From: an uncultured bacterium
GTDB taxonomy: Bacteria > Desulfobacterota > Desulfobaccia > Desulfobaccales > 0-14-0-80-60-11
Length of the DNA stretch: 37,607 nt
Direction of reading: 5' to 3'
Assembly: GCA_937943575.1 (NCBI GenBank)
Contig: CALEAV010000034.1
Span: 1-37,607, forward strand
Of this stretch, positions 20,755-28,680 are shown piece by piece (position 1 is the first letter of the stretch; each line of letters opens with the position of its first letter). Position numbers and translations under genes: made by a program. The notes under the pieces were generated by a model. It saw nothing but the letters and a program-made list of their open reading frames with translations, was not told the origin of the DNA and searched no databases.

Positions 20755-22485
20755 TCAGCCGGGGTAAATGTCCCAGAAAAAGGCCAGCAGCCCCGCCAGC
20801 ACCATGTTGCCCTCCACCAGGGACTCGAGGATGAGACCGGACTCCATCACCTCCCGGCGGTATAAGGTGAGGTAGACCAGGGCATAGAGGCCGCAGAGGC
20901 TCAAAACATAGCCCAGGGAGGGCACCAGCCCCAGGGCGGCGGCCAGAAGCAGGGCGGCGGCGAAGAAGACGCTGCCCAGGGAGAGCAGGTTGAGGGTGTG
21001 GCGGCGTCCCAGGGCGATGGCCAGGGTCTCCTTGCCCACCACCCGGTCGCCCTCGATGGCCAGGATCTCAAAGAGGCCGGAGCGGATGAAGACCAGCCCG
21101 AAGACGAAGAGGAAGGCCACCACCGTGGCCCAGGTGAGGGGGCGCTCGGAGCAGACCACCGGGATGAGGGCAGCCAGCACCCCCCAGGCCAGGGAGGTGA
21201 AGACGGTCTTGGAGCCGGGGATTTCCTTCAAAGCCGTGATGCGGGTGAGGGCGGCCAGCCGCTCCGGCATGAGCTTGAGATTGTACAGGAGCCCGAGAGC
21301 GCTCATGGCCAGAATGAAGGCGAAGGGCACCGGCCCCAGGACGAGGCCCAGGGCCAGGGCGGCCAGGGCGGACAGCGCCCCGCTCACCAGCAGAAAGGTG
21401 CGGTGCCGGCCGTAGAACATGGTCTGCACCGGGTCGTTGAGCTTGCTGGCGGCATCGGTGAAGTGGTTGAGGAGATGCATGGCGTAGATGTAGAAGAAGG
21501 CCACGAAGAAGTATTTCCACTGAGGCTCCACCTGCTGCAGGAGGGAGGAGGTGTAGCTCAGGCAGCCGGCCCCCAGGGCCACATAGAGGTTGGACTTGAG
21601 GAAGAAGCGCCAGACGCGGTAGAGGTAGTTGGCCAGGGACCCCGGCCGAAAGGCCCAGGCGTGCTTCAGGGTGCTCACCACGTTGCTGATGAGCCAGTGG
21701 GGGGTGGAGGCCCCGGCGGTGACCCCCACCACCTGGTAGCGGCTCATCTCCGCCAGGTCCAGCTCCTGTTCCGTCTCCACGTGGTAGGTGGGCACGCCCG
21801 TGGCCCGGGAGATCTCCACCAGGCGCTGGGTGTTGCCGCTGTTTCTGCCGCCCACCACCACGATGGCCTCCACCCGGCGGGCCAGGTGCTGGATCTCCCC
21901 CTGACGGGAGGCGGTGGCGTCGCAGATGGTGTTGAAGACCTTGGCTTCCGGGAAGCGGGAGCGGATCAGGGAGACCAGGGCGTTGAACTGGGCTTCGCTC
22001 TGGGTGGTCTGGGCCACCACGATGACCCTCTCCAGCTCCGGGAGGCCGGCCACATCGGCGGGGGTGGAGACCACGTAGCCCCTGCCCTCGGTGTGGCCCA
22101 GCAACCCCCGCACCTCGGGGTGGTCGGCGTCCCCCACAATGAGGGTGGCGTGCTCCTGGCGGGCCCAGCGGCGGATGATGGCCTGCACCTTGGCCACCCG
22201 GGGGCAGGTGGCGTCGATGATGCGCACCCCGGCCGCCTCCAGCTCCCGGCGCTCCTGGGGCGGGATGCCGTGGGCCCGGATGACCACCAGTCCCCGGGGG
22301 GTCTGGCCCCGCTCCAGGACCCTGATGCCTCGCTCCCGCAGGAGCTCCAGCACCTGGGGGTTGTGGATCAGGGGCCCGTGGGTGTAGATTTCGCCCTGGT
22401 TCTGGTTGATGGCCTGCAGCACCAGCTCCAGGGCCCTTTTGACCCCCATGCAGAAGCCGGAGGTCTTGGCGAGGATGACCTTCAT
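20755..22485 (-). CDS. ispH: IspH (HMBPP reductase) fused to a UbiA-family prenyltransferase
   Basis: 576 residues in two parts. Residues 1-283 are IspH, the 4Fe-4S enzyme that reduces HMBPP to IPP and DMAPP: cluster ligands Cys12, Cys94 and Cys188, His41, His72 and His122, Glu124, Ser216/Asn218 in NSGN and Ser260 are all in place. Residues about 290-576 are a multi-helix membrane domain of UbiA type, with N340-x3-D344 in the first acidic region and LAIEGDRVVGKETL (476-489) as the second. IspH is normally a separate soluble protein of about 300 residues. The acceptor of the prenyl transfer is unknown; divergent CruF-like and nearby HpnG-like genes suggest carotenoid or hopanoid lipid synthesis. 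Start ATG at 22485, Shine-Dalgarno weak. Confidence 0.92.
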   Translation of the reverse strand: MKVILAKTSGFCMGVKRALELVLQAINQNQGEIYTHGPLIHNPQVLELLRERGIRVLERGQTPRGLVVIRAHGIPPQERRELEAAGVRIIDATCPRVAKVQAIIRRWARQEHATLIVGDADHPEVRGLLGHTEGRGYVVSTPADVAGLPELERVIVVAQTTQSEAQFNALVSLIRSRFPEAKVFNTICDATASRQGEIQHLARRVEAIVVVGGRNSGNTQRLVEISRATGVPTYHVETEQELDLAEMSRYQVVGVTAGASTPHWLISNVVSTLKHAWAFRPGSLANYLYRVWRFFLKSNLYVALGAGCLSYTSSLLQQVEPQWKYFFVAFFYIYAMHLLNHFTDAASKLNDPVQTMFYGRHRTFLLVSGALSALAALALGLVLGPVPFAFILAMSALGLLYNLKLMPERLAALTRITALKEIPGSKTVFTSLAWGVLAALIPVVCSERPLTWATVVAFLFVFGLVFIRSGLFEILAIEGDRVVGKETLAIALGRRHTLNLLSLGSVFFAAALLLAAALGLVPSLGYVLSLCGLYALVYLTLYRREVMESGLILESLVEGNMVLAGLLAFFWDIYPG

Positions 22486-25365: not shown

Positions 25366-25731
25366 TCAGAAGGTGAAGACCTTGTAATCCGGGTCGGCCA
25401 TCAATTCCACCAGTTTGGTGGCCGGGGAGATGACCGCCCCGGGGATGAGGTCATCGGGCCCCACCAGGCGTTTGTCGGCGCAGGCCTTGCAGACATGGAT
25501 GGGGGTGTTGGCGGCCACCAGGCCGTCCAGCATCTCCTTCATGTGCTCGCCGGTGGCGGCCCGGATGCCTTCGGCGATGCCGATCTGGGCCCAGTGGATG
25601 GAGTCGTCGATGAGGAAGATCTCCACCGCCTTCCCGGCCTGGACCATGAGGTTGGCGAGCTGCATGGCCCTGACGGCCCCGCCGGCCTTTTCAAAGCCCT
25701 TGGACATGATGAAGAGAAATTTCTGCGCCAT
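25366..25731 (-). CDS. DsrE/DsrF-like family protein
   Basis: 121 residues with the DsrE fold: FLFIMSKG start, a first helix with GGAVRAMQLANLMVQAGKAVEIFLID, and a C-terminal HVCKACADKR with Cys81 and Cys84. In the family such a cysteine carries sulfur (as DsrE and TusD do); here two cysteines in a CxxC could carry persulfide or bind a metal. Family members act in sulfur relay and in dissimilatory sulfur metabolism. It lies between two membrane proteins and may be transcribed with the cytochrome gene upstream, through repeat copy C. Start ATG at 25731 with GGAGG shortly before. Confidence 0.8.
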   Translation of the reverse strand: MAQKFLFIMSKGFEKAGGAVRAMQLANLMVQAGKAVEIFLIDDSIHWAQIGIAEGIRAATGEHMKEMLDGLVAANTPIHVCKACADKRLVGPDDLIPGAVISPATKLVELMADPDYKVFTF

Positions 25732-25892: not shown

Positions 25893-28472
25893 TCAGGCTT
25901 TTTCCTCCGGCGGCACCGCGCCCTTTTCCTTTTCTTCCCGGGCCATGATCTCCTTGTACCATTCCGAGTGGTGCTTCTTGGCCCAGGAGCGGCTCACCTT
26001 ACCGTCCACCAGGGCCCGCCAGGTGCCCGGGTTGGCGATGGTGCCCAAATAAGCGTGGGCGATGACCGCAGCCACAAAGATCACCGCAAAGAAGCCGTGG
26101 ATGGTGGAGAGCAGGCAGCTCAGGCTCAGCGGCAGGCTGGTCTTGAAGATGAGCAGGATGCCGGTGACACCCATGATCAGGGTGAGGGCGGCGGTGAACC
26201 AGAGGAAGATCTTCTGGCCGGCGTTCAGCCGCCCGGCGGGCACCTCCACCTCCTTGCCGCCCAGATAGCCGCCCCGTTTGGCCAGCCATTCCCGGTCATA
26301 GGGGGCGAATCTGGCGTCCCTGGCCCACAGGGCCACCGCCACGATGCCGGCGGCCACAAAGATGAGGCCTGCCACCCAGTGGACCACCACCGCGGTGGCG
26401 GGGGTGCTGAAGAACATCCGGAGCATGGTGACGTTGTTGAAGAAGAAGATGTAGCCGGTGAAGGCAAGCAGGAAGAAGGACAGCATGCGGATGAGGTGCG
26501 TCCACCGCTCCGTGAGGTTGAAGCGCTCAATGGTCGCCGGCTCATAGGTGAAGTCGGCGCCCTTGGGCCCCTGGCCGGTGTAGTGCAGGGTGAGGCCGAA
26601 GACCAGGAGCAGGAGCAAAAGGCTCACATAAGGAGTCAGATAGGTCTGGTGGAACTGGTTGACATAGAAGACCCAGGGCTGGCAGCCGAAGAGGCGGCCG
26701 GAGCTGATGGTCACGGGTTTGCCCTCGGGGCCGAACATGTCGGTGACGATCTGCCCCTTGAACATGTGGGCCTGGGGGGAGTGGCAGTCGCCGCAGCCGT
26801 TGGCGCCCAACGCCAGGCTGGCGGGGGCGACGTTGTGGTTGATGTTGAAGCCCTCGGAGTGGCCGGCCCAGGTGGTGTCGGGGCCGCTCACCAGCTCGCC
26901 CTTCCCGTCCAGGTAATACATCATGCCGCCCTTGTGGAAAAAGGGCCTAATCTGCTGGAAGCGCTTGTTCCCTTGGAGGGTCTCCTTGAAAGCCAAGAGG
27001 GCGATCTTGATCTGCTCCGGGGTGTGGAGCTCGGGTTTCTGGGGATTTTTGGGCTTGAGCTGCTCTTTGGCCTTCTCATAGCCCTTCTTCAGCTCCCGGG
27101 CGAAGAGGGGGTAGTGAATACCGTCCTTGTCCTGGTTGGTGAAGAAGATGCTTTTGAAGCGGTTCACCGGCCAGAGCTTGCCCTTCTCATCCCGCTGGTA
27201 GGAGGGCCGCCAGGTGAATTCATCGCCGAGCTTCCCGGCCCCGGGGGCGGGGAGCATGGTGGGGTAGTTCACCATGGCGCCGGTGGTGACGTCGAAGCCC
27301 TCAAAGCCGGCCCGGTGCACCGCCGGGATGTGACAGACCTCGCAGGCCAGCTTCTCCAGGTGGTTGGGGCGGATGGAGAGGTGCTGCGGCCGGGGTGCGC
27401 CCATGTAGCCCTGGTCGTGGCAGGACTGGCAGTTTCTGAAGCCCACGTGGTCCAGGTCATCCCGCACGGTGGAGACGTTTTCATCCCCTTTGGCGAACTG
27501 GTGCTGCAGCCTGGTGATCCTGCGGGCCGGGTCCTCGATGGCGGGGTGGCAGTGGGCGCAGTTCATCCCCTGGGCGTTGTGCACATCGTGATTGACCCGG
27601 TCGTTCCAGGAGAAGCCCCGTTTCTTGACGTCGGAGATGCCGTGGCAGAAGACGCAGTTCTCCGCCGGGGGCGGATAGGAGAGATCCAGGACGATCTTGC
27701 CGTCTTCGTTGAACAGGCGCCGGTTGTAGGTCACCTTGGGCTGCTGGCCGTCCCGGACAAAGCCGCTCACCAGGCCGATGCCGGAGGCCGCGGTGCCGGC
27801 CCACTTGTAGTTGAGCATCTTGAGCTGCCGGGTGCGCTCATTGAAATTGTAGCCCGGCAGGTGGCAGAGGAGGCAGTCGGCCTCCACCACGCCAGTCTTG
27901 TCCCACTGGCTCTGGTAGTAGTCGCCGTCCAGGGTCTGGGCCAGCTGGGGCTCGGCCTTGAGGCGCTGGTCATAGCGCTTGCCGTCCCGGTCGAACTCCA
28001 GGCCGCCACCGCCGGGATGGCAGGAGCCGCAGGTGGGCAGGTTCATCCCCTGGGGGTCCCGGGGGCCCACACTGATCCACTCAAAGGTGGTGAGGTCGAT
28101 CTGGTCCGGATGCTCGTTTTTCTTTTTCGCCAACTGGCGAAACGAGGGCGGTCAGAACTTCCCCATCATGCCGTCGGACAACACCCAGGGCTTGGCCCTG
28201 CTGTAATCGTCCCGGATGCGGTCCCAGCCCTGCTGGAAGTGGAAGCCCTTGGTGATTTCATCGTAGTTGTGGCAGGCCCCGCAGGTCTGCCGGGGGCTGT
28301 AGGGCTGGTCGGCGTTCTCCCCGGTAATGGGGTTGATGATTTTGCCGTCCTCGGTTTTGAGGTGAAAGGGCACACAGGCCCGCTCCCGGGCCTGGAGCTC
28401 CGGGGGCAGAGAGAGAAGCCAGGCGGCAATGAGGGCCAGGCCGCCTCCGGAGATGATGAGCAGTCGTTTCAT
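25893..28472 (-). CDS. CbcL-like eight-haem cytochrome c / cytochrome b, with in-frame TGA (candidate selenocysteine 107)
   Basis: Read through one TGA (28152-28154), the protein has 859 residues. Signal peptide about 1-28; eight CxxCH c-haem sites at Cys64, 148, 200, 273, 305, 348, 377 and 560; then, from about 613, a membrane cytochrome b of formate dehydrogenase gamma type with ERWTHL, HGFFAVIF, HAYLG and NPGTWRALVDGKVSRSWAKKHHSEWY. This layout matches Geobacter CbcL (c-type haems plus HydC/FdnI-type b domain), a quinol oxidase of low-potential respiration. Codon 107 is TGA, in frame, followed by PPSFRQLAKKKNEHPD. The second half alone lacks a signal peptide and a Shine-Dalgarno (a TTG at 28131-28133 is the only start), so a separate cytoplasmic protein is implausible for c-haem attachment. 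Start ATG at 28472, with GAGGAGG nine bases upstream. Nonsense mutation or sequencing error remain possible. Confidence 0.72.
28113..28154 (-). promoter_or_regulatory. Candidate bacterial SECIS element after the in-frame TGA
   Basis: Just after the TGA, on the minus strand, TTTCGCC and GGCGAAA form a perfect seven-pair stem with apical loop AGTT. The loop starts 17 bases past the TGA and has a G in its second position. A lower helix CTCGT/ACGAG closes it over an A-rich 3' bulge. Stem length, loop G and the 16-base distance fit the published bacterial SECIS rules (at the lower edge for distance). Confidence 0.6.
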
Positions 28473-28680
28473 GGCGCACCGCCTCCTCATATGGCAGATG
28501 TTTTCCGACCATGCCCCTGGGCCCCCGGGCCATATGAGCAGGGAAGCCGGGGGCCCGGCTCAGGCAGCGGCGGCCAGAGAGCCGGAAACCCCCGGTGGGG
28601 GGAGCAGGATGGCAGCCCTCCCCCCGCCGTTGACCTCTCCCCTTGGGCACCCTGTCCCGGCATCGCTGCACCTTACAGGG

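Follow-up and report, generated by a model that had tools for sequence, protein, structure and literature searches.

A multihaem cytochrome gene located in the window, i.e. the whole stretch of DNA that was analysed (37,607 nucleotides, from an uncultured bacterium of the sulfate-reducer type), is interrupted by a single in-frame TGA. Does this codon inactivate the gene, separate two genes or encode selenocysteine (Sec)? A previous reading of this DNA made without database searches (hereafter the sequence-only reading) had proposed read-through as Sec near the first haem of a quinol-linked cytochrome. The residues found at this position in homologues, a hairpin located just after the TGA and the Sec machinery of the genome all support this proposal, and comparative sequence analysis indicates that Sec is almost certainly inserted at codon 107.

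One reading frame interrupted by one TGA

According to the list of open reading frames and their translation, a single frame of the minus strand (28472-25893) encodes an 859-residue fusion of an octahaem cytochrome c and a cytochrome b. It begins with an ATG (28472-28470) and comprises 106 sense codons, a TGA at codon 107 (28154-28152), which is its sole interruption, and 752 further sense codons in the same frame, as had been claimed for the two pieces. Its terminal stop is also a TGA (25895-25893). The features of the locus are the following:

28482-28487, minus strand: Shine-Dalgarno sequence AGGAGG located 5' of the ATG at 28472 (direct reading)
25893-28472, minus strand: read-through gene of 859 residues with predicted Sec at 107, including the terminal TGA (25893-25895); full-length homologues carry the same internal TGA
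28389-28472, minus strand: predicted N-terminal signal peptide or membrane helix, residues 1-28, ending in LQA (direct reading; helix 2-21 in the structure model)
28152-28154, minus strand: in-frame TGA, codon 107, probably read as Sec; TGA in 25 genomes, TGT or TGC in 11 more distant homologues
28125-28142, minus strand: bSECIS-like hairpin TTTCGCC-AGTT-GGCGAAA, with its apical loop at 28135-28132, 16 nt after the TGA; AGTTGG invariant in 26/26 Sec-form sequences and found in none of the 11 Cys forms
26673-28388, minus strand: octahaem cytochrome c domain, residues 29-600, with CxxCH at 64, 148, 200, 273, 305, 348, 377 and 560; profile match to octahaem tetrathionate reductase (OTR)
25923-26534, minus strand: FdnI-type cytochrome b, residues 647-850 (TIGR01583, 134.1 bits for a cut-off of 115.85; 1kqf_C)
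25366-25731, minus strand: adjacent downstream gene of the DsrE/DsrF family with a CKAC motif (PF02635, E 1.8e-15)

An alternative upstream frame is longer (112 aa, from 28490) and overlaps the Shine-Dalgarno sequence; therefore, the start at 28472, preceded by AGGAGG at 28487-28482, is preferred, in agreement with the sequence-only reading.

Annotation programs will predict two genes here, as each piece is an open frame, and the locus could encode two proteins: a monohaem peptide of 106 residues, and a protein with its own start that carries the seven other c haems and the cytochrome b. The distribution of motifs is the one that had been described: the signal peptide and the first CxxCH (residue 64) lie upstream of the TGA, whereas the seven other CxxCH and the cytochrome b domain lie downstream. 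All eight motifs are invariant across our alignment of the family (A1, 33 rows). Inspection of the start codons nearest downstream of the TGA (TTG114, GTG135 and ATG143) revealed no signal peptide, although the haems of the second piece need export, and no clear Shine-Dalgarno sequence. The claim that the downstream piece lacks both thus stands for the signal peptide but is to be restricted to a clear Shine-Dalgarno sequence, since a weak CAGGGG immediately precedes ATG143. Moreover, relatives having Cys at the site are single uninterrupted proteins across the junction, and full-length homologues align across it, which bears out the view that the protein continues past the TGA. Export, starts and continuity of the Cys forms led us to reject the two-protein reading, whose probability appears negligible.

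Conservation of the TGA and exchange with cysteine

The TGA is found at codon 107 in 26 Sec-form sequences and is never replaced by TAA or TAG. These sequences originate from 25 genomes, because loci L009 and L021 correspond to a single contig. All close homologues, which belong to the same order and share about 70-95% identity, carry the TGA at exactly this position. A second clade of TGA forms, found in other families of the phylum, shares about 31-35% identity with the window protein over long alignments and has the context GGR(W/Y)-TGA-(S/T)(P/A)AP.

Furthermore, 11 more distant loci have a TGT or TGC (Cys) in this column, within the contexts GGNW-C-SPAPLYRQLAPKKN and GGRW-C-P, and four homologues have T, S, Q or F. 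Alignment A1 includes 20 Sec, 9 Cys and these 4 other forms; two Cys loci, L037 and L038, are additional to it. Hence, the comparison of homologues at position 107 that had been proposed with the sequence-only reading yields TGA or Cys in most cases. In the tree of the 33 members, the window belongs to one Sec clade and the second Sec clade is sister to a Cys clade; at least two changes are needed to account for the Sec forms, the root being arbitrary and some branches long. Taken together, the distribution of TGA and Cys codons gives strong signs of Sec/Cys replacement.

Could the TGA be a nonsense mutation in a decayed gene, or a miscalled base? Some of the assemblies are draft metagenome bins and one match (L010/L041) is split between frames by a frameshift near residue 385, which could favor such an explanation. 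However, independent assemblies show the same TGA, and homologues from 25 genomes, with identities as low as about 31%, maintain it and never have TAA or TAG instead. In addition, codon changes downstream of the TGA are largely synonymous (109 synonymous and 50 non-synonymous between the window and its homologue in genome G009), and the hairpin described below is kept at the nucleotide level. This conservation leads us to reject both a sequencing error and an isolated pseudogene, and we consider that there is practically no chance that either explains the locus.

Three of the four homologues with other residues (L062, L064 and L066) are relatives of about 610 residues from one family (f8), with S, Q or F replacing Sec/Cys. 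Two of them (L064 and L066) also have an Arg instead of the counterpart of Lys284, a residue discussed below. These relatives perhaps constitute a subfamily that would have lost a Sec/Cys-Lys chemistry.

A hairpin downstream of the TGA

Bacterial SECIS elements (bSECIS) are hairpins located just downstream of the UGA, with a G among the first bases of their apical loop. Here, the TGA is followed by TTTCGCC-AGTT-GGCGAAA (28142-28125), whose loop, with a G among its first bases, starts 16 nt after the TGA, or 22 nt after it in the second clade, some members of which have a register-shifted hairpin (CCGC-AGTTG-GCGG). Outside the Sec forms, AGTTGG recurs only in L066, one of the four homologues with other residues. 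This stretch encodes a Gln-Leu dipeptide that is common to the Sec forms and several Cys forms. Its Leu is encoded by the rarer codon TTG in 26/26 Sec forms, while 3-30% of all Leu codons of these genes are TTG; no Cys form uses TTG at this position, and the single non-Sec exception is again L066, which has Phe at the site.

In 26/26 Sec forms, the hairpin has a lower fold energy than its synonymous recodings have on average (z -0.7 to -2.9), whereas z is scattered about zero in the Cys forms. Sec-form sequences of a same clade are kin, so that these 26 are not 26 independent events. For single sequences, the hairpin is moderately better than its synonymous recodings in many cases (p up to 0.24). 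The count of the longest stem is weak, since a stem of this length is attained by 317 of 50,000 synonymous recodings and by 69 of the 847 windows of the gene; the argument for the hairpin therefore rests on joint conservation and codon choice. A Rfam scan of the window was negative, which is the expected outcome for a scan that included no general model of bacterial SECIS elements.

Selenocysteine machinery of the genome

The genome that includes the window (2.58 Mb, 95.8% complete) encodes tRNA-Sec (73.8 bits), SelB (351.9 bits), SelA (618.6 bits) and SelD (365.2 bits, with one in-frame TGA of its own). The search for selA, selB, selC and selD that had been suggested thus retrieved all four. 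Among 26 sampled genomes that carry the TGA form, tRNA-Sec is found above the cut-off in 22 and SelB in the other four. As tRNA-Sec is nearly as frequent in genomes with Cys forms (15/17), co-occurrence with the machinery is necessary but not discriminating.

The TGA might also be read without Sec, because of a reassigned code or through near-cognate suppression, which would insert Trp, Cys or some other residue. A C or an A following a TGA is a context prone to leaky reading, and one of these bases follows it in all Sec-form sequences but one. However, the gene itself ends with a TGA, related clades use Cys instead at this position, and the hairpin is accompanied by a complete Sec system. Read-through of this type is therefore very improbable, and insertion of Sec remains the preferred explanation.

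Domains of the protein and kinship with octahaem tetrathionate reductase

The C-terminal domain (residues 647-850) matches the formate dehydrogenase gamma subunit model (FdnI, TIGR01583) over residues 648-850 with 134.1 bits, above the cut-off of 115.85. A sequence search of the PDB retrieved FdnI from E. coli (1kqf_C, E 5.7e-25) and did not retrieve OTR. His659, 698, 792 and 806 align with His18, 57, 155 and 169 of E. coli FdnI, which we take to be haem ligands. No gene encoding the alpha or beta subunit of a formate dehydrogenase was found in the immediate neighbourhood of the cytochrome gene. The fold search with the predicted model also retrieved 1kqf_C (TMt 0.84), which confirms the cytochrome b part alone. 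Structure prediction reached a pLDDT of 61.7 for the whole protein and of 66.0 (pTM 0.69) for the c domain; both models are without haems and too poor around Sec. The fold search with the c-domain model gave no meaningful match, the proteasome rows being noise, and a search of a plasmid collection gave matches to cytochrome b only.

None of the NCBIfam models covers the c domain above its cut-off. The window protein scores 22.4 bits against the OTR model (TIGR04315), below the cut-off of 375; 28 of 33 relatives match this model at E<=0.001, with a best value of 1e-14. Moreover, the alignment of the family profile with that of OTR covers haems 3-7, with a probability of 99.2% and an E of 8.7e-20, and a forced global alignment of profiles pairs all eight haems with those of OTR. 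The octahaem cytochrome is, on these profile comparisons, a collinear and distant relative of OTR. Lys153 of OTR (numbering of the 1SP3 alignment), presumably the ligand of the active-site haem in 1SP3, aligns with K284, found in 31/33 rows. The two rows with Arg at this position (L064 and L066) also lack Cys or Sec at the site.

Among OTR homologues from Desulfobacterota, TGA forms are frequent, many of them about 540-560 residues long, and other homologues have Cys. For instance, in the following loci, which match TIGR04315, the TGA often lies at the position of Cys64 of Shewanella OTR:

L082, L085, L086 and L090: OTR homologues

In the alignment, this TGA lies in the interval from haem 1 to haem 2, within the motif NNF-[C/U]-I, i.e. 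at Cys64 of 1SP3. The distance from the His of haem 1 to the Sec/Cys site is 39-45 residues in the window family versus 36-37 in the three OTR proteins measured. Since the stretch between haems 1 and 2 cannot be aligned confidently (the confident profile alignment skips it and forced alignments put a gap there), we infer from order and spacing that the Sec107 site would correspond to that of OTR Cys64.

The genome of the window also carries an OTR-like octahaem gene (G000:C20:8075-9259, plus strand) that scores 190.5 bits, below the cut-off, and has no internal TGA.

Gene neighbourhood

The gene located downstream of the cytochrome gene on the same strand (25366-25731) belongs to the DsrE family. 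Such a gene adjoins the cytochrome gene in several other genomes: it follows the cytochrome gene in G008, G009 and G006 and precedes it in G014, G019 and G020. In G006 (L093) and G014 (L095), the second Cys of its CKAC motif is replaced by a TGA (CKA-TGA), after which the protein continues and a hairpin follows:

L093, 6314-6559, minus strand: DsrE gene with TGA at the second Cys; continues after the TGA
L095, 4535-4780, plus strand: DsrE gene with TGA at the second Cys; continues after the TGA

The DsrE protein of these two loci is a predicted CxxU selenoprotein, whereas the DsrE selenoprotein of published lists is UxxC (PMC13188914). As adjacency is observed in two gene orders and DsrE is sometimes Sec-encoded, this suggests that the cytochrome and DsrE share a function in sulfur or selenium chemistry. 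Upstream of the cytochrome gene lie genes encoding MTHFR and its partner protein, a linkage limited to the genus among the genomes checked.

Elsewhere in the window, an IspH (HMBPP reductase, residues 1-274) is apparently fused to a UbiA-type prenyltransferase (weak match, residues 295-541; 20755-22482, minus strand). Homologues are found in G008, G009 and G006.

Proposed function

The gene thus very probably encodes an exported selenoprotein in which an octahaem cytochrome c is followed by a dihaem cytochrome b of the FdnI type and Sec107 is inserted by means of a bSECIS. We propose that this protein is an OTR-like reductase. UGA 107 would be decoded as Sec via the hairpin by the SelA, SelB, tRNA-Sec and SelD of the same genome. 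Quinol would be oxidised at the cytochrome b, where electrons would enter, pass through the eight periplasmic c haems and be used at an OTR-like active-site haem with the assistance of Sec107, which may act as a nucleophile or as a haem-proximal selenol. Such a role as a quinol-linked reductase is rather likely. A sulfur-type (sulfur- or selenium-containing) substrate, to which OTR kinship and DsrE linkage point, is plausible while falling slightly short of an even chance. Candidate substrates might include polythionate, thiosulfate, sulfite or sulfane species, perhaps with exchange with a DsrE sulfur relay.

Sec107 may instead be non-catalytic (a haem ligand, a redox switch or a means to resist over-oxidation) in a CbcL-like quinol:cytochrome unit that would deliver electrons to periplasmic or extracellular acceptors. 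The architecture of the c/b fusion suits a quinol-cytochrome hub, the homologue of genome G044 is encoded directly upstream of an ExtKL selenoprotein, and T, S, Q or F occupies the site in four rows. On the other hand, kinship with OTR and the conserved counterpart of Lys153 point to a catalytic octahaem enzyme, and both rows having Arg instead of K284 are devoid of Cys or Sec at the site. A non-catalytic Sec107 is a real possibility, although we would not call it probable. As for a catalytic Sec107, we suggest, quite tentatively, that the catalytic site of this quinol-driven octahaem reductase may be made up jointly of Sec and a c-type haem. This would be a new class of respiratory enzymes, with Sec/Cys exchange in two distantly related octahaem families (that of the window and OTR) and a linked DsrE selenoprotein.

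Novelty and significance

A 2026 review of prokaryotic selenoproteins lists 119 families and subfamilies. Its cytochrome entries are ExtKL and, on the basis of GenBank annotation, the OTR family (TIGR04315); the cytochrome family of the window is absent from this list (PMC13188914). In a read-through survey of 2007, ExtKL was the sole cytochrome found (PMC1914089). In the open-access literature, we found no description of an octahaem or multihaem cytochrome selenoprotein like that of the window; unpublished RefSeq annotation may exist. The sequence-only reading knew of no described case in this family: this holds for the family itself, whereas Sec in multihaem cytochromes has precedents in ExtKL and OTR. 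The octahaem c/cytochrome b fusion thus appears, from its sequence, to be a new selenoprotein family that is not in the published lists searched.

This would be a family of large, membrane-bound, quinol-linked multihaem selenoproteins spread across Desulfobacterota, with natural Cys counterparts. To our knowledge, the known selenoproteins are, with few exceptions, thiol-type oxidoreductases or molybdenum or nickel enzymes. As automatic annotation turns the gene into a short peptide plus a cytochrome that lacks a start, the family has probably been overlooked in many genomes. If the proposal is true, selenium and haem work side by side in an anaerobic respiration whose substrates are probably sulfur compounds, which would bring selenium-dependent haem catalysis into the sulfur cycle.

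Comparison with known systems

Like the window protein, ExtKL from Geobacter (NF040886) is a multihaem c cytochrome with an in-frame TGA found in Desulfobacterota. However, ExtKL has five haems and its Sec lies near the C-terminus in an AGHxxPDGU motif, whereas that of the window protein is at 107. The window protein does not match the ExtKL model (NF040886) at E 1, and an ExtKL search of its own genome gave no match. Membership of this family was rejected, since the model does not match and Sec is absent from the C-terminal motif. Selenite reduction is associated with the ExtKL family, which is increased on Fe(III). In one genome (L100, G044:C10), a member of the window family (63856-66381) lies directly upstream of ExtKL (66650-67840), both genes having an in-frame TGA.

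The sequence-only reading had suggested a comparison with CbcL-like homologues; the kinship demonstrated here for the haem-c part is with OTR. In CbcL from Geobacter, a cytochrome b of the HydC/FdnI type is joined to a multihaem c domain. The window protein resembles it, by description only, in overall architecture and in a likely quinol:cytochrome role. CbcL is listed as a membrane-bound quinol:cytochrome c oxidoreductase (PMC9012536), and we found no paper tying it to Sec in the open-access literature.

The C-terminal domain resembles E. coli FdnI, with a score above the curated cut-off and four aligned haem-ligand His. FdnI is a stand-alone subunit, whereas the cytochrome b of the window protein is fused to an octahaem c domain.

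Finally, the window protein shares with OTR (TIGR04315; Shewanella OTR, PDB 1SP3) eight c haems in the same order, a Lys after haem 4 and a Sec or Cys located about 36-41 residues beyond the His of haem 1 and ahead of haem 2, and Sec forms of OTR occur in the same phylum. It differs from OTR by the distance from the site to haem 2 (31-41 residues in most rows of the window family versus about 10 in OTR) and by its fused FdnI-type cytochrome b.
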